A DNA stretch of 64,000 bases. Source: Alphaproteobacteria bacterium. Lineage in GTDB: Bacteria > Pseudomonadota > Alphaproteobacteria > UBA8366 > Aestuariispiraceae. A program made the position numbers and the translations under genes. The notes under the pieces are model-generated. The model had not been told where the DNA came from. It saw only the letters and a program-made list of their open reading frames with translations, and searched no databases. The stretch lies in NCBI GenBank assembly GCA_024743195.1, contig JANSXE010000007.1:124001-188000 (forward strand). The letters are read 5' to 3'. Below are positions 51,909 through 59,345 of this stretch, one piece after another (position 1 is the first letter of the stretch; each line of letters opens with the position of its first letter).

Positions 51909-52160
51909 ATGATCAAGAAGAGCATTACAATCACTCAACAGCAGGCGGCCTGGATCGAGGCGCGGATCGCGTCCGGCGACTACGCCTCCGACAGCGAGGT
52001 CGTCCGGGAGGCGTTGCGCGAGAAGCAACATCGCGCCGCCGAGATCGACCGCATTCGGGCCGCCCTGATCCAAGGGGAAGCAAGCGGCTTCTCCGAGGCC
52101 GGCAAGGAAGACATTCGCCGCGCCGTGAAAGACGCGCTCGCCCGTGACGAGGCGCTATAG
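51909..52160 (+). CDS. parD: Type II antitoxin, ParD family
   Basis: 83 residues. The N-terminal ribbon-helix-helix is KKSITITQQQAAWIEARI, followed by SGDYASDSEVVREALRE, typical of ParD. The C-terminal helix binds the toxin. Overlaps parE by 17 bp. Probably represses its own operon. Confidence 0.88.
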   Translation: MIKKSITITQQQAAWIEARIASGDYASDSEVVREALREKQHRAAEIDRIRAALIQGEASGFSEAGKEDIRRAVKDALARDEAL

Positions 52161-52434
52161 GCTAAGCCGCGAGGCGGAGGGCGATATTGCCCGGCTCTAT
52201 CGCTTCGGCGTGAAGACCTTCGGTTTGGCTCAAGCCGACGCCTACTTTGATGGGTTGTTCGAACGCTTGCACCAGATCGCGGAGACGCCCCAACGCTATC
52301 CTTCACTCGATGAGATACGCGCTGGATACCGCCGATCTGTCTTCGCCGCGCACTCGATCTACTTCCGTTTGTCTCCGGACGGCGTGGTTGAGATCATGCG
52401 CGTGTTGGGACGCGAAGATACGGACGCGCTGTGA
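52144..52434 (+). CDS. parE: Type II toxin, ParE/RelE superfamily
   Basis: 96 residues from a GTG start inside the end of parD. The pattern YRLSREAEGDIARLYRFGVKTFG, then RYPSLDEIRAGYRRSVFAAHSIYFR and VEIMRVLGREDTDAL, is typical of ParE. ParE proteins inhibit DNA gyrase. The conserved C-terminal Arg and His residues appear intact, so the toxin looks active. Confidence 0.88.
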   Translation: MTRRYRLSREAEGDIARLYRFGVKTFGLAQADAYFDGLFERLHQIAETPQRYPSLDEIRAGYRRSVFAAHSIYFRLSPDGVVEIMRVLGREDTDAL

Positions 52435-53013: not shown

Positions 53014-54150
53014 TCAAGCCGGATGCGTGCGCTCCCACTGGTCGGCGAAGTCGGCGAGCCGGATGGGGCGGCGTTTGCGGCCCCAGGCGCCGGGCTTGTC
53101 CTCGAAGACGCCGGCGACGGCCGACCCGCAGGCGGTGCAGTGGCCGCCCTGGCCCAGCGACCAGCGGGTGATCTCGTACCAGTCGCGGCCGATCACGGGC
53201 GCCGCGCAGCCGGGGCAATAGGTGCTGCCGGTCGCCTCATGGTGGATGTTGCCGGTATAGGGGTAGTGCAGGCCCGCCGCCTTGGCGATGCGGTGGGCGC
53301 GCATCAGGGTCTCCGGCGGGGTGTTGGTCTTGTCCTTCATCCGATAGTCCGGGTGGAAGGCGGTGAAGTGGATCGGAACGTCCGGCCCGCACTGTTCCGC
53401 CACCCATTGGCAGAGCCGCTCCAACTCCTCCTCGGAATCGTTCTCGCCGGGGATCAAGAGCGTCGTCAGCTCGGTCCAGCAGTCGGTCTCCTTGACCAGC
53501 CACTCGATCGTCTCGAGCACGGGCTGCAGCCGTCCGCTGCACAGCTTATGGTAAAAATCCTCGGTGAAGCCCTTGAGGTCGATGTTGGCCGCGTCCATGC
53601 GCGAGAAAAAATCCTCGCGCGCGGCCTCCTTCACATAGGCGGCGCTGACGGCCACGTTCTTGATACCGCGCGCCCGGCAGGCGTCGGCCACGTCGGTCGC
53701 GTACTCCAGGAAGATGACCGGGTCGTTGTAGGTGTAGGCCACCGAGCGGCAGCCCGTGCGCTCGGCCGCCTCCGCGATGGCGCCCGGCGGCGCGTGGTCC
53801 ATCAGCCGGTCCATCTCGCGGCTCTTGGAGATGTCCCAGTTCTGGCAGAACTTGCAGGTCAGATTGCAGCCAGCGGTGCCGAAGCTCAGCACCGGGGTTC
53901 CGGGCAGGAAGTGGTTAAGCGGCTTTTTCTCAATCGGATCGATGCAATAACCGGAAGACCTGCCGTAGGTGGTGAGCACCAGTTCGTCGCCGGCGCGGGC
54001 GCGCACAAAGCACAGGCCCCGCTGCCCCTCGTGCAGCTTGCACTCGCGCGGGCAGACGTCGCATTGGATGCGACCGTCCTCCAGCCGCCGCCAGTGGCGG
54101 GCTGGAACGCCCTCGATCACATCGTCCTTGAGGGTGACCGCGTCGGTCAT
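53014..54150 (-). CDS. amrS: AmmeMemoRadiSam system radical SAM enzyme
   Basis: 378 residues. The radical SAM cluster motif is CNLTCKFC, set in FGTAGCNLTCKFCQNWDISK. Other cysteines form a preceding CDVCPRECKL group and a later CPGC and CTACG pair, so extra metal or cluster binding is possible. The family, close to PflA-like activases, has the pattern YGRSSGYCIDPIEKKPLNHF. It is always found with Memo and AMMECR1 homologues, as here. The chemical product is not known. Divergent from the memo gene. Confidence 0.92.
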   Translation of the reverse strand: MTDAVTLKDDVIEGVPARHWRRLEDGRIQCDVCPRECKLHEGQRGLCFVRARAGDELVLTTYGRSSGYCIDPIEKKPLNHFLPGTPVLSFGTAGCNLTCKFCQNWDISKSREMDRLMDHAPPGAIAEAAERTGCRSVAYTYNDPVIFLEYATDVADACRARGIKNVAVSAAYVKEAAREDFFSRMDAANIDLKGFTEDFYHKLCSGRLQPVLETIEWLVKETDCWTELTTLLIPGENDSEEELERLCQWVAEQCGPDVPIHFTAFHPDYRMKDKTNTPPETLMRAHRIAKAAGLHYPYTGNIHHEATGSTYCPGCAAPVIGRDWYEITRWSLGQGGHCTACGSAVAGVFEDKPGAWGRKRRPIRLADFADQWERTHPA

Positions 54151-54304
54151 CGCATCGCACTCCTGAGGTCTATCCGCTCTCCCCTCTCAAAAACCCGTCT
54201 GCCGCTGCACATATTGGAACGGATAGGGTACCATACCAGAGGCGCGCCACGCGCCGGGAATTCGCTTCCGAGGCGAACACGAAAGGGACGGGACGCAGGC
54301 AGCC

Positions 54305-55129
54305 ATGGCCCAGATCCACCTCCACCCGACCAAGCGCGCCGCCGGCCTGCGCCGGCCCGCGGTCGCGGGCATGTTCTATCCGGGCGATCCGACGGAGCTG
54401 GAGACCCTGGTCGACCGGCTGCTGGGCGAGGCGGGGCCGCAGCCCGGCCCGGCGCCGAAGGCGATCATCGCGCCGCACGCCGGCTACATCTATTCCGGCG
54501 CACTGGCGGCCAGGGCGCACGCCCGCCTGATCCCGGCGCGCGAGGAGATAGAGCGCATCGTCCTGATGGGCCCCTGCCACCGGGTGGCGGTTCGCGGGCT
54601 GGCCGCGACATCGGCGGCCGTCTGGGAGACGCCGCTCGGCCGCACGCCGATCGCGCGATCGGCGTTGGACGCGGTCGCGGGGCTCGCGCAGGTCGTCACC
54701 TCCGACCCCGCCCATGCGCAGGAGCACAGTCTGGAGGTCCACCTCCCCTTCCTGCAGCGCGTCCTGAAGCCGGGCTTCACGCTCCTGCCCTTCGCCGTCG
54801 GCGCGGCGACCGCCGCGGAGGTGGCGGAGGTGCTCGACGCGCTCTGGGGCGGGCCGGAGACGCGCATCGTGATCTCCACCGACCTCAGCCACTTCCTCGA
54901 CTACGAGAGCGCGCGGGCGCTCGATTCCAAGACGGCCGAGGCGATCGAGCGGCTCGACTGGCCGGCGCTGAGGCGCGAGCAGGCCTGCGGGCGCACGCCC
55001 ATGTCCGGCCTGTTGGAGATCGCAAAGCGCCGCCGGCTCGCGATCGAGCGGATCGGGCTCTGCTCCTCCGGCGACACGGCGGGCCCTCGCGACCGGGTCG
55101 TCGGCTACGGCGCCTGGGCGGTGCAGTGA
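54305..55129 (+). CDS. amrB: AmmeMemoRadiSam system protein B (Memo family)
   Basis: 274 residues. Memo-like fold related to class III extradiol dioxygenases: RRPAVAGMFYPGDP, APHAGYIYSGALAARAH, IVLMGPCHRVAVRGLA, AQEHSLEVHLPFLQRV and STDLSHFLDY. The His and Cys-like positions of the metal site are retained in the APHAGY, GPCHRV and EHSLE segments. The biological reaction is not established. The AMMECR1 gene follows after 15 bp. Confidence 0.93.
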   Translation: MAQIHLHPTKRAAGLRRPAVAGMFYPGDPTELETLVDRLLGEAGPQPGPAPKAIIAPHAGYIYSGALAARAHARLIPAREEIERIVLMGPCHRVAVRGLAATSAAVWETPLGRTPIARSALDAVAGLAQVVTSDPAHAQEHSLEVHLPFLQRVLKPGFTLLPFAVGAATAAEVAEVLDALWGGPETRIVISTDLSHFLDYESARALDSKTAEAIERLDWPALRREQACGRTPMSGLLEIAKRRRLAIERIGLCSSGDTAGPRDRVVGYGAWAVQ

Positions 55130-55144
55130 GAGGAGGACGCGAGA

Positions 55145-55735
55145 ATGGCTGAGGCGGCGACCCTCCCCGACCCGCAGACGATCGCGGCCGAACATGGCGA
55201 CGCGCTGCTCGGGATCGTCGGGCGCACCATCGACAGCGGGATCGCCAAGGGCAAGCCGCCGCAGGTGGCGCTGCAGAGCTTCGCGCCCGCGCTGCAGGCC
55301 CCGGGCGCCAGCTTCGTGACGATCGAGAAGGCCGGCGCGCTGCGCGGCTGCATCGGCAGCCTGCAGGCGCACCGTCCGCTGATCGAGGATTTGGTGCAGA
55401 ACGCCTTCTCCGCCGCCTTCAAGGACCCGCGCTTCCCGCCGGTCAGCGCCGAGGAGCGCCCGGCGCTCGCCTGGTCGATCTCGCTGCTCTCCCAGCCGGA
55501 AGAGATGGCGGGCCTGAAGGACGAGGCGGATCTGCTCGCCCGCCTCGAGCCCGGCGCCGACGGCGTCATCCTGGCCGAGGGCGCCCGCCGCGCCACCTTC
55601 CTGCCGCAGGTCTGGGAGCAGATTCCCGATCCCCGCGACTTCATCGGCCGGCTGAAGCTGAAGGCCGGCCTGTCTCCCGTTCATTGGTCGGCGCAGATGC
55701 GCGTCTGGCGCTACGGCGTCGTGAAGATCGGGTAG
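55145..55735 (+). CDS. amrA: AmmeMemoRadiSam system protein A (AMMECR1 domain)
   Basis: 196 residues, single AMMECR1 domain. The family's conserved hexapeptide LRGCIG is present in GALRGCIGSLQAHRPLIEDL, and the trailing pieces FKDPRFPPVSAEE and FLPQVWEQIPDPRDFIGRLKLKAGL also match. Human AMMECR1 is linked to Alport syndrome with intellectual disability; its reaction is unknown. GGAGG is 11 nt before the ATG. Third member of the tripartite set. Confidence 0.93.
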   Translation: MAEAATLPDPQTIAAEHGDALLGIVGRTIDSGIAKGKPPQVALQSFAPALQAPGASFVTIEKAGALRGCIGSLQAHRPLIEDLVQNAFSAAFKDPRFPPVSAEERPALAWSISLLSQPEEMAGLKDEADLLARLEPGADGVILAEGARRATFLPQVWEQIPDPRDFIGRLKLKAGLSPVHWSAQMRVWRYGVVKIG

Positions 55736-55749
55736 GTCGAGCCGACGCC

Positions 55750-56040
55750 TCAAGCGCCCGCGACCAGCGCCCCTTCGGCCTGCGCCGCCGCGGCGAGCCG
55801 TCGGTCCTTTGCCGCCAGAGGCAGGCCGCGCCTCTGCGCCTGCAGGAGCGCGTTCGCCGCTTCGAAGCGCCAGATAACTGGCGCCGCCGGCGCCGCCGCC
55901 TCCTCGTCCGATCGGGCGGAGGGCGGGCGCAATTCCGCCACCACGCGGTCGCGCCGCGTGATCAGCACCCGCTCTCCCAATTCGACCCGGCGGAGCAACT
56001 CGGGAAGACGGCTCTTGGCTTCGTACCTGCCGATCTTCAT
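55750..56040 (-). pseudogene. Phd antitoxin fused to a collapsed VapC toxin
   Basis: 96 residues that join two genes. Residues 1-40 (MKIGRYEAKSRLPELLRRVE, then LGERVLITRRDRVVAELRPP) are an almost complete Phd/YefM antitoxin. Residues 55-96 match only the beginning (VIWRFEAANALLQAQRRG) and the end (GLPLAAKDRRLAAAAQAEG) of a PIN-domain VapC toxin. The central part, with most of the acidic active site, is gone. The junction falls on a repeated RRG coding sequence that both VapC segments normally contain, so a deletion between direct repeats explains it. The toxin activity must be lost; whether the antitoxin part is still used is unknown. Confidence 0.7.
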
Positions 56041-56208: not shown

Positions 56209-58554
56209 ATGGGTCAGTTCGGCGTCGGCCAGGCGATCACGCGGGTGGAGGATCAGCGCTTCCTCACGGGAACGGGCGCCTACACCGACGACATCGACCT
56301 GGAGGGCCAAGCCTACGCGGTCGTGGTGCGCGCGCCGCTTGCGCATGCGCGCATCGCCTCCATCGACGTGGAGGACGCCAAGGCGGCCCCGGGCGTGCTG
56401 GACGTCCTGACCGGCGCCGACGTCGCGGCCGCCGGCCTGGGCCTGATGCCCAATCTGATTCCGCTGAAGAACAAGGACGGCAGCCCCATCGTCGAGCCGC
56501 CGCGCCCCGTCCTGGCGACGGACCGGGTGCGCCATGTCGGCGACCCGGTCGCCTTCGTGGTGGCGGAGACGCTGGCCCAGGCGCGCGACGCGGCCGAACT
56601 GGTGACGGTGGATTATGACGAACTCCCCGCGCAGATCGACCTCGACGCGGCGGACGCGCCGGATCGGCCGCAGATCTGGGAGGAAGCCCCGCACAACACC
56701 TGCTTCACCTGGGACCTGGGCGACGAGACGGCGGCCGACGAGGCGCTGCGGGAGGCGGCGCATGTCGTGCGCCTCAAGCTCGTCAACAACCGGCTCGTCG
56801 TCAATTCAATGGAGGGGCGGGTCGCGCTCGGCGACTTCCGCGACGGCAAGTTCACCCTCTACACCCCGACCCAGGGCGTGCACGGGCTGCGCCGGCAACT
56901 CGCCCGGATGATCTTCCATGTGCCGGAGGATCAGGTCCGCGTCGTCACCCGCGACGTCGGCGGCGGCTTCGGCATGAAGATCTTCCTCTATCCGGAGCAG
57001 CCGCTGGTCATGCTGGCGGCGCAGCGCCTGGGCCGGCCGGTGAAATGGACGGCGGAGCGCTCGGCCGACGGCTTCCTGTCCGACAGCCACGGGCGCGACC
57101 ATGTCTCGGTCGCGGAGCTGGCGTTGGACGGGGACCTCAATTTCACCGGGCTCAAGGTGCACACCAAGGCCAATCTGGGGGCCTATCTCTCCAACTTCGG
57201 GGTCTATGTGCCGACCGCCTGCGGCTCCAAGATGATGGTCGGCGTCTACAAGACGCCGGCGATCCATGTCGAGGTGCAGGGCCTCTTCACCAACACGGTG
57301 CCGGTCGACGCCTATCGCGGCGCCGGCCGCCCGGAGATCAGCTATCTGATCGAGCGGCTGGTCGACAAGGCGGCGATCGAGCTGGGCGTGGACGCGGCTG
57401 AGCTGCGCCGGCGCAACTTCATCGCGCCCGAGCAGATGCCCTACGCCACCCCGCTGGGCACGACCTACGACAGCGGTTTGTTCGATCGCAACATGAGCCG
57501 CGCGCTGGAACTCGCTGACGAAAAAGGATTCCCGGAACGCCGCCAGGCGGCCGAAGCCAAGGGTCGGCTGCGCGGCCTCGGGCACGCCTACTATATCGAA
57601 TGCTGCGGGGCGGGCCCGGGGGAGCAGGCGACGCTGCGCACCGACGCGGCTGGACGCGTGACCCTCTATATCGGCACCCAGTCGAACGGCCAGGGGCACG
57701 AGACCGCCTACAGGCAGATCATCGCCGACGCGCTCGCCCTCGACATCGCCGACATCGACGTGGTTCAAGGCGACACCGACCTGATCCGGAAGGGCGGCGG
57801 CACCGGCGGCTCGCGCTCGATCCCCGAAGGCGGCGTCGCCGTGCGCGACGCCGGCGACAAGTTGATCGAGAAGGGCAAGCAGATCGCCGGCCTGCTGCTG
57901 GAGGCGGCGGCCGGCGACATCGAGTTCGTCGACGGCCGGTTCGCCATCGCCGGCACGGACCGGACCGTCTCCTTCCGGGAGGCGGCGCGCGCCGCCCACG
58001 ATCCCGCCCGCCTGCCGGAGGGGGTCGCGCCCGGCCTCGACGGTCAGGCGGACTACAAGGCGCCGGTTCAGACCTATCCCAACGGCTGCCATGTCTGCGA
58101 GGTGGAGATCGACCCGGACACCGGCGCCGTGACGGTGGTCAAGCACACGGTGGTGGACGATTTCGGACGCGTCCTGAACCCGCTGATGCTGGCCGGCCAG
58201 GTGCATGGCGGCGTGGCGCAGGGGCTGGGCCAGGCCCTCTTGGAGTATACGGCCTACGACAGCGAGACCGGCCAGCTCCTCTCCGGCTCCTTCATGGACT
58301 ACACCCTGCCGCGCGCCGACGACGTGCCCTTCGTCGACTTCCACTATTTCGAGGACGCGCCCTGCACCACCAATCCGCTCGGCCTGAAGGGCGCGGGCGA
58401 AGCCGGCGCCATCGGCGCGCCGCCGGCGGCGATCAACGCCATCGTCGACGCGCTGAGGCCCTTCGGCGTCGACCATCTGGACATGCCGGCGACGCGCGAG
58501 AAGATCTGGCGCTTGATCCGCGACGGCCGCGCCGCGCGGAAGGCGGCGGAATGA
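56209..58554 (+). CDS. Xanthine dehydrogenase-family molybdopterin-binding subunit (CoxL-like)
   Basis: 781 residues, the molybdenum-cofactor subunit of the aldehyde oxidase/CO dehydrogenase family. Substrate-channel and cofactor motifs are visible: GGGFGMKIFLYPEQ, the active-loop segment DAYRGAGRPE and the catalytic Glu in LKGAGEAGAIG near the C terminus. The loop is DAYRGAGRPE and not the AYRCSFR of true CO dehydrogenase, so CO is unlikely to be the substrate. The usual partners, an FAD subunit (CoxM-like) and an iron-sulfur subunit (CoxS-like), are not adjacent. It starts a three-gene unit with cysQ and a deoxyribosyltransferase-like gene. GGGGAG is 8 nt before the start. Confidence 0.88.
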   Translation: MGQFGVGQAITRVEDQRFLTGTGAYTDDIDLEGQAYAVVVRAPLAHARIASIDVEDAKAAPGVLDVLTGADVAAAGLGLMPNLIPLKNKDGSPIVEPPRPVLATDRVRHVGDPVAFVVAETLAQARDAAELVTVDYDELPAQIDLDAADAPDRPQIWEEAPHNTCFTWDLGDETAADEALREAAHVVRLKLVNNRLVVNSMEGRVALGDFRDGKFTLYTPTQGVHGLRRQLARMIFHVPEDQVRVVTRDVGGGFGMKIFLYPEQPLVMLAAQRLGRPVKWTAERSADGFLSDSHGRDHVSVAELALDGDLNFTGLKVHTKANLGAYLSNFGVYVPTACGSKMMVGVYKTPAIHVEVQGLFTNTVPVDAYRGAGRPEISYLIERLVDKAAIELGVDAAELRRRNFIAPEQMPYATPLGTTYDSGLFDRNMSRALELADEKGFPERRQAAEAKGRLRGLGHAYYIECCGAGPGEQATLRTDAAGRVTLYIGTQSNGQGHETAYRQIIADALALDIADIDVVQGDTDLIRKGGGTGGSRSIPEGGVAVRDAGDKLIEKGKQIAGLLLEAAAGDIEFVDGRFAIAGTDRTVSFREAARAAHDPARLPEGVAPGLDGQADYKAPVQTYPNGCHVCEVEIDPDTGAVTVVKHTVVDDFGRVLNPLMLAGQVHGGVAQGLGQALLEYTAYDSETGQLLSGSFMDYTLPRADDVPFVDFHYFEDAPCTTNPLGLKGAGEAGAIGAPPAAINAIVDALRPFGVDHLDMPATREKIWRLIRDGRAARKAAE

Positions 58555-59345
58555 GCGCCGCGGAGGCGCCCGATCCGGCCGCCCTCCTCGCCCCCGTCGC
58601 CGCAATCGCGCGGGAGGCCGGGGCCGCGATCATGGCCGTCTACGCGACCGACTTCGAGGCGCGCGAGAAGGACGACGCCTCCCCCGTGACCGACGCGGAC
58701 GAGGCGGCGGAGGCGCTGATCGTTCCCGCGCTCGAGCGCCTCTCTCCCGGCGTTCCCATCGTCGCGGAGGAGGCGGCGGCCGCCGGCGACGTTCCGGCGG
58801 TCGGCGACGGCCCCTTCTGGCTCGTCGATCCGCTGGACGGGACGAAGGAGTTCCTCAGCCGCAACGGCGAGTTCACGGTCAACATCGCCCTGATCCGCGA
58901 CCGGCGCCCGGCCTTGGGCGTCGTCTACGCGCCGGCGCTCGACGCGCTCTATTGCGGCCTCGCGGGGGACGGGGCGACCCGGTCGCTCAAGGGCGGCGCC
59001 GCCGAGCCCCTATCGGTGCGCAAGCCGCCGGCCGACGGCGTCACCGTGATCGCCAGCCGCCGCCACGGCGACCCGGCGGCGATCGAGGCCCATCTGAACG
59101 GCCGTGCGATCGCGGACCGGGTCAACGCCGGCAGCAGCCTGAAATTCTGTCGCCTGGCCGAGGGCGCGGCCGACGTCTATCCACGCTTCGCCCGCACCAT
59201 GGAGTGGGACACGGCCGCCGGCCAGGCGGTGCTGGAGGCCGCCGGCGGCCTCGTCACAGAAGCCGACGGACTCCCCTTCCGCTACGCCAAGAACCCGATC
59301 TTCGAGAACCCGCATTTCATCGCCTGGGGCGGGCTGCGGCCGTGA
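58551..59345 (+). CDS. cysQ: 3'(2'),5'-bisphosphate nucleotidase
   Basis: 264 residues. Inositol monophosphatase-like fold: SPVTDADEAAE, the metal site VDPLDGTKEF and the late ARTMEWDTAAGQAVLEAAGG. It would hydrolyse 3'-phosphoadenosine 5'-phosphate, the waste product of sulfate assimilation and sulfotransfer. Overlaps the preceding gene by 4 bp and the following gene by 4 bp, so it is translated in one run. Confidence 0.9.
   Translation: MSAAEAPDPAALLAPVAAIAREAGAAIMAVYATDFEAREKDDASPVTDADEAAEALIVPALERLSPGVPIVAEEAAAAGDVPAVGDGPFWLVDPLDGTKEFLSRNGEFTVNIALIRDRRPALGVVYAPALDALYCGLAGDGATRSLKGGAAEPLSVRKPPADGVTVIASRRHGDPAAIEAHLNGRAIADRVNAGSSLKFCRLAEGAADVYPRFARTMEWDTAAGQAVLEAAGGLVTEADGLPFRYAKNPIFENPHFIAWGGLRP

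Follow-up and report, generated by a model that had tools for sequence, protein, structure and literature searches.

The radical S-adenosylmethionine (SAM) enzyme AmrS, the Memo homologue and the AMMECR1 homologue that make up the AmmeMemoRadiSam system are encoded together in a stretch of 64,000 nucleotides from an Alphaproteobacteria bacterium of the Aestuariispiraceae (assembly GCA_024743195.1, contig JANSXE010000007.1, positions 124,001-188,000 of the forward strand; hereafter the window). The locus is a typical, ordinary copy of a widespread and known kind. Compared across genomes, Memo and AMMECR1 are a tight pair and AmrS is their strong but separable partner. The reading favoured here, tentatively and with a probability of roughly one in three, is that the proteins work stepwise on a diffusible or membrane-borne substrate of isoprenoid type, in preference to a single three-protein enzyme.

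In the window, amrS (53014-54150, minus strand, 378 amino acids (aa)) matches the NCBIfam model TIGR04337 at 627.2 bits (cut-off 220) and carries PF04055. The Memo homologue, AmmeMemoRadiSam system protein B (54305-55129, plus strand, 274 aa), matches TIGR04336 at 239.5 bits (cut-off 26) and PF01875 at 151.5 bits, while the AMMECR1 homologue, system protein A (55145-55735, plus strand, 196 aa), matches TIGR04335 at 185.0 bits (cut-off 99) and PF01871 at 153 bits; the Pfam assignments of the three products agree with those of NCBIfam. An earlier note on this DNA had placed a complete trio of still unassigned reaction here, and both parts of that statement held: coordinates and orientation are exact, all three products lie above their cut-offs, and no assigned reaction for the trio was found in the literature searched. 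The genes amrS and memo diverge from a 154-bp intergenic region (54151-54304), in which a simple scan found no sigma-70-like site. Memo and ammecr1 form a two-gene unit on one strand, with a gap of 15 bp (55130-55144, plus strand) containing the ribosome-binding-like sequence GAGGAGG. They share one reading frame and are separated by one TGA and five codons (55127-55145). The other genome listed for the genus (G181) encodes a single fused Memo-AMMECR1 protein, identical to that of Marivibrio halodurans (L053), and separate and fused forms thereby both occur inside one genus. The source organism is accordingly likely to be a Marivibrio or something closely related to it. Apart from having separate genes where its congener has a fusion, the locus shows no notable difference from the AmmeMemoRadiSam system as defined by TIGR04335, TIGR04336 and TIGR04337, which it resembles in the cut-offs passed, in gene linkage and in invariant residues. 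The source genome holds a single copy each of Memo, AMMECR1 and AmrS above the cut-offs. AMMECR1 is present in 13 of the 14 genomes listed for the family (source genome counted) and, at the level of the order, in 24 of 43, hence the trio is no recent import of the source genome alone. Carriage on a mobile element was considered and set aside: a single-protein query, suited to close relatives only, gave one short match in viral_contigs, and 8 of 72,556 plasmid records had a match.

The tightness of the Memo-AMMECR1 pair is seen in a search of 150 genomes of the source phylum, which are related and not independent of one another. Memo was found in 67 and AMMECR1 in 67, the two sets of genomes being identical, and AmrS passed its cut-off in 66, namely 64 of these 67 and two others. 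Linkage was followed in 81 loci, mainly from Proteobacteria, comprising 80 named loci and the source locus: all three genes lie nearby in 56, AmrS and Memo in 7, and AmrS alone in 18, several of which are on short contigs. Memo and AMMECR1 are fused in one open reading frame (ORF) in 15 of the 56 loci holding both. Of the genomes with the 25 incomplete loci, 21 encode Memo and 17 AMMECR1 at some place, and neither Memo nor AMMECR1 was found in four of the 25 AmrS genomes checked (L072, L076, L074 and L127). Two of these (L072 and L076) are Bradyrhizobium genomes with an orphan AmrS. Among 61 genomes of Nitrospirae (the phylum of G150), 56 have Memo, 47 AMMECR1, 46 AmrS and 42 all three; Memo occurs without AMMECR1 in 10 and AMMECR1 without Memo in 1. 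The trio genes of this phylum mostly lie apart, all three standing together in 8 of 40 AmrS loci. Of the control genomes, Thermus composti has Memo without AMMECR1 and Haloferax volcanii AMMECR1 without Memo. Humans and other eukaryotes keep Memo and AMMECR1 and are not known to have AmrS.

In a sister branch, a shorter type of AmrS adjoins a Memo-AMMECR1 fusion (L032, L033, L035-L040, L190 and L191). A hydrophobic, signal-peptide-like N terminus was found in 10 of the 10 sister fusions examined, from two phyla (maximal hydropathy over 11 residues 2.1-2.8), and in none of the five fusions that lie beside a typical AmrS. In a uniform rerun, with a hydropathy mark of 2.0 applied to Memos having at least 11 residues before the domain, 9 of the 10 sister fusions passed, L038 being missed because its hydrophobic stretch lies further upstream. 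Of the 107 typical Memos, 74 are too short before the domain to carry a signal, and 2 of the 33 with room passed (L150 and L099); of the 20 Nitrospirae Memos, 15 are likewise too short and 0 of the 5 with room passed. The sister branch seems, from these signal-like N termini, to export the fusion. If this export is real, Memo-AMMECR1 can act beyond the cytosol, separated from SAM and tRNA, and neither a fixed three-protein enzyme nor an RNA substrate is then easy to defend as an answer for the whole family. Several details of this branch and its surroundings are recorded here for their own sake. The fusion of L191 has a lipobox-like LFSSC; related membrane proteins lie near the exported-looking fusion in two phyla (L033:4890-8870, L190:6547-8643 and L191:1251-3305), that of L033 having spermine-synthase, FMN_bind and 4Fe-4S domains. 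The Memo of a Segatella plasmid (L150:6459-7934), which lies near RtcB, also has a hydrophobic N terminus (2.57).

Given the 4 partnerless AmrS among 25 and the exported-looking Memo-AMMECR1 fusion, the "complete set" of the earlier note, though complete in its genes, is better not taken for a single obligate enzyme. A single complex of AmrS, Memo and AMMECR1 was considered and set aside: the predicted structure of the Marivibrio fusion has well-predicted domains, with a mean predicted local distance difference test score (pLDDT) of 90.7, but a predicted template modelling score (pTM) of only 0.59, which does not fix the interface between Memo and AMMECR1.

The gene neighbourhood adds substrate clues, chiefly from one phylum. 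A search for consistent extra neighbours, proposed in the earlier note, returned none in the 81 loci, where no family outside the trio appears in more than 11 and the commonest are all generic (ABC transporter 11, type II secretion system ATPase 10, GGDEF/EAL 8), and two kinds in Nitrospirae, a polyprenyl diphosphate synthase and archease/RtcB. Two larger neighbour clusters (24 and 21 loci) were taken as shadow ORFs, their representatives overlapping amrS or memo on the other strand. A phosphoribosyltransferase (6 loci), an M17 aminopeptidase (6) and an inositol-phosphatase family (6, source locus counted) were discarded as lineage-bound or scattered. In Nitrospirae, the stand-alone AMMECR1 gene lies on the same strand and 3′ of a polyprenyl diphosphate synthase gene (PF00348, 242 bits) in 26 of 29 loci (17 of 20 and 9 of 9). 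In the same phylum, archease lies at most 1.2 kb from AmrS in at least 15 of the 39 genomes that have both (13 at 8-245 bp and 2 divergent at 1150 bp). These pairs were picked by eye from whole-genome positions; simple arithmetic puts the chance expectation at about 0.05, for genomes that are related to one another. Archease and RtcB often lie 3′ of AmrS in this phylum, each being found within 3 kb in 12 of the 40 AmrS loci. As separate observations, an NMD3-like gene (PF04981 in L195) shares the strand of a nearby AmrS in 6 of these 40 loci (L195, L199, L200, L201, L202 and L205), and Nitrospirae Memo genes (L221-L240) lie near DnaB in 9 of 20, ribosomal protein L9 in 7 of 20 and a B12-dependent ribonucleotide reductase in 6 of 20.

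The Memo homologue carries residues that match the iron site of its human counterpart. Human MEMO1 binds iron through H49, H81 and C244, at which positions LigB has His, His and Glu, and dioxygenase activity of MEMO1 was looked for and not detected with the substrates tried (PMC11081632). A PDB search with Memo retrieves MEMO1 at an E value of 5.6e-18, and in a profile alignment H49, H81 and C244 correspond to H58 (54476-54478), H92 (54578-54580) and C228 (54986-54988) of Memo, all on the plus strand, while H131, D189 and H192 correspond to H141, D193 and H196. All six residues are invariant in the 43 Memos aligned with MAFFT, four sister-branch loci included, and the five other than C228 are present in 107 of 107 homologues. 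An apparent loss of C228 in eight sister-branch rows of one alignment and seven of another was put down to misalignment, five of the eight having a TAC motif two residues off and the aligned stretch of the other three ending just before it. Judged from sequence only, the two-His, one-Cys ligand set of MEMO1 is thus kept, and because bacterial Memos have these ligands, the unusual His-His-Cys iron site of human MEMO1 has a putative counterpart in the bacterial trio and is no late human feature.

In a fold comparison, the Memo part of the Marivibrio fusion model aligned with MEMO1 at a Z score of 34.3 over 258 residues and about 31% identity, and with the archaeal TK2203 at a Z score of 17.6; 18 entries titled as dioxygenases follow with Z scores of 14.1-16.5 at 9-15% identity, as expected of a LigB-like fold. 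Memo thus shares its fold with the extradiol dioxygenases (LigB, DesB and aminophenol dioxygenase) and differs from them by this low identity, by Cys in place of the Glu ligand, by having no known activity, and by owners that are mostly anaerobes. As C228 stands where LigB has Glu, the two-His, one-carboxylate triad of class III extradiol dioxygenases is absent and Memo is not filed among these enzymes. With human MEMO1 it shares the fold, the iron ligands and their neighbours H131, D189 and H192, and differs at position 257 (55073-55075), where MEMO1 (PDB 7kq8 and 3bcz) has Gln278 and Memo a conserved acidic residue: of 138 Memos, 122 have Asp and 8 Glu (130 of the 135 with a residue there), the five other residues and three gaps all belonging to the exported branch of the source phylum, while two exported Nitrospirae fusions keep Asp. 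D257 was considered as a carboxylate iron ligand and dropped, as the Cys of the MEMO1 SSQC motif is C279, while C244 is that of the ICG motif, aligned with C228.

AMMECR1 has an invariant Cys of its own, C69 in the motif RGCIG (55349-55351, plus strand), which is found with D94 in 82 of 82 homologues. The Cys is retained in the archaeal structures 1zq7, 1wsc and 1vaj, which share the fold (Z scores of 18-22) and the RGCIG Cys; these archaeal proteins differ in being stand-alone. AMMECR1 is an anaerobe-marking Pfam family in PMC13386939, where its table row reads 3.38 against 50.66, figures that may be per cent of aerobes and of anaerobes. Such a marking argues against an O2-dependent role.

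AmrS belongs to the radical SAM superfamily by its CX3CX2C cluster motif (CNLTCKFC, 53845-53868, minus strand), of which C95, C99 and C102 are each present in 133 of 133 homologues. Two further groups of four Cys are conserved in the same alignment of 133. The N-terminal group (54010-54063, minus strand) consists of C30 (132), C33 (129), C37 (132) and C47 (133), the C-terminal group (53128-53217, minus strand) of C312, C338 and C341 (132 each) and C315 (123, with Asp in 9). The predicted structure (pTM 0.89) has as its nearest PDB fold PflA (3cb8; Z score 23.3, root-mean-square deviation 2.4, 225 aligned residues, within residues 61-299), followed by NifB (Z scores of 16-17) and RlmN/QueE (15-16). 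AmrS thus has in common with PflA the barrel fold and the CX3CX2C motif and differs from it by the N- and C-terminal four-Cys sites, both of which fall outside the shared region in the model comparison. Its score against the PFLA model is 49.9 bits, under the cut-off of 231.75, and it is not placed among the glycyl-radical activases. The suggestion in the earlier note that extra Cys pairs signal more than one metal site is likely correct, since the Cys exist and are conserved; it describes the family and nothing special to this locus. Multiple metal sites are thus a probable trait of the AmrS family, and may hold iron-sulphur clusters (Fe-S) or zinc.

Among the AmrS relatives, a selenocysteine paralogue was suspected from nine matches marked "1 TGA" and rejected, the TGA being an ordinary stop after the conserved GVW(T/A/S) end with nothing conserved behind it. 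Three relatives of about 495 aa have a longer C-terminal part (L041:1693-3183, L042:6166-7650 and L043:6107-7612); Ser replaces C33 in those of L041 and L042, and in L041 the frame of a Cys/Met-metabolism pyridoxal phosphate enzyme overlaps downstream. A Methylocystis rosea plasmid carries an AmrS-like stretch in which no gene is annotated (L148:7007-7957), next to a different radical SAM gene and with mer genes nearby.

On the isoprenoid reading, AmrS would cleave SAM and abstract a hydrogen from a small substrate at an unreactive C-H bond, while zinc or auxiliary clusters in its additional Cys sites may serve in electron transfer or in holding the substrate. Memo, for which AMMECR1 would form a lid or help to bind the substrate, would then act on the AmrS product at iron held by H58, H92 and C228. 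This step would probably be of lyase, hydrolase or isomerase type and not an O2-dependent ring opening, because the dioxygenase carboxylate is absent and the pair is enriched in anaerobes. The proteins would act in sequence on a diffusing or membrane-sited compound, since the sister branch seems to export Memo-AMMECR1, and the likeliest substrate class would be isoprenoid (a polyprenyl diphosphate, a quinone or a lipid carrier), because Nitrospirae AMMECR1 shares an operon with a polyprenyl diphosphate synthase. The reading is ranked first as it fits both these operons and the exported branch. Several observations weigh against it. The link of the synthase to AMMECR1 is confined to one phylum, with none beside AMMECR1 in 11 loci outside Nitrospirae, and a phmmer search with the Nitrospirae synthase matched nothing in the window or in any of the 80 named loci. 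In addition, RtcB and archease beside AmrS point to RNA, the typical Memos of L150 and L099 also pass the hydropathy mark used for export, and the pTM of the fusion model lends no support to a fixed Memo-AMMECR1 interface. A bolder version, improbable as a whole, would have the trio carry out oxygen-independent C-H functionalisation of polyprenyl-type molecules, AmrS performing the radical step in the cytosol and the His-His-Cys iron of Memo-AMMECR1 finishing the reaction, which in the exported branch would take place at the outer face of the membrane. If so, MEMO1 and AMMECR1 of humans would be what is left of an anaerobic step of isoprenoid modification.

The main rival, close behind the isoprenoid reading because RtcB or archease recurs beside trio genes in four phyla, is RNA modification or repair. 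It is a possible, if doubtful, account in which AmrS and Memo-AMMECR1 would alter or repair a base of RNA, probably of a tRNA, in company with the ligase RtcB and its activator archease. It draws on the Nitrospirae neighbourhoods described above (archease in at least 15 of 39 genomes, RtcB at 12 of 40 AmrS loci and the NMD3-like gene at 6 of 40) and on scattered occurrences elsewhere. Among the 80 named loci, archease is found in two gammaproteobacterial ones (L056 and L066), 3′ of AmrS and with the divergent amrS/memo layout in both, and RtcB in one (L066); RtcB also lies near AMMECR1 in L267 (Myxococcota; 1 of 11 AMMECR1 loci outside Nitrospirae) and near amrB-amrS on the Segatella plasmid L150 (1 of 6 plasmid loci). 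Archaeal AMMECR1 is moreover linked to PIN and Zn-ribbon proteins (PMC6393860). However, archease was found in 3 of the 150 source-phylum genomes and not in the source genome, which makes it dispensable, and the sister branch seems to keep Memo-AMMECR1 apart from tRNA. It may also be that the NMD3-like, RtcB and archease genes merely travel together as archaeal-type genes. No paper in the literature searched names archease and AMMECR1 together, and archease, RtcB and radical SAM come together there only in a tRNA review (PMC6313347).

Modification of a protein or peptide, in which a PflA-activase-like AmrS would install a radical or cross-link on a protein, possibly AMMECR1 at C69, or on a peptide, is unlikely. 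PflA is the nearest fold (Z score of 23), C69 is present in 82 of 82 homologues, and a related radical SAM domain occurs in peptide-processing conflict systems (PMC7159879), but the score of AmrS against the PFLA model (49.9 bits) lies far under the cut-off of 231.75 and no consistent small gene lies near the locus among the 81 loci, ORFs below 70 aa not having been sought. Eukaryotes, moreover, keep the pair and are not known to have an AmrS. Iron or redox homeostasis, with Memo carrying or sensing iron and the trio supporting Fe-S or iron supply, is less probable again: human MEMO1 is an iron-binding protein that shows genetic interactions with iron genes (PMC11081632) and its three ligands are kept in Memo, but this function alone leaves the linked radical SAM enzyme and the polyprenyl synthase and RtcB contexts unexplained. 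Least probable of all is a prenylated or isoprenoid-derived nucleotide, such as a prenyl-modified tRNA base, as one substrate that would cover the polyprenyl synthase and RtcB/archease contexts together, since these contexts involve different trio genes, never in one operon among the loci examined, and export of Memo-AMMECR1 is hard to fit to it. The abstract of Burroughs 2019 (J Biol Chem) reportedly takes Memo contexts to point to modification of nucleotide bases and of isoprenoids, in line with the RNA and the isoprenoid readings respectively; if so, the two contexts described here match those of that study and may have been published before.

The surroundings of the locus in the window hold further genes. 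Beyond a 170-aa Zn-ribbon-like protein adjoining amrS lies a ParD/ParE toxin-antitoxin pair (51909-52434; PF03693 and PF05016), and on the other side a lone Phd-like ORF (55750-56040), under the Pfam cut-off. A molybdopterin dehydrogenase large subunit gene follows (56209-58554), its end overlapped by an inositol-phosphatase (CysQ-like) gene (58551-59345). Relatives of this CysQ-like gene also accompany Memo-AMMECR1 in 5 of the named loci, of which there are 80 (L057, L060, L078, L089 and L092).

Conservation of Memo and AMMECR1 extends from archaea to humans, in whom both have links to disease. Since bacterial Memos keep the iron ligands of the human protein, they can replace MEMO1 in laboratory work, and the exported-looking Memo-AMMECR1 form gives a handle for localisation. 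The polyprenyl diphosphate synthase and archease-RtcB partners indicate which metabolites and RNAs to measure first. The source locus is itself ordinary; it is the comparison across many genomes that narrows the possible chemistry of the trio.

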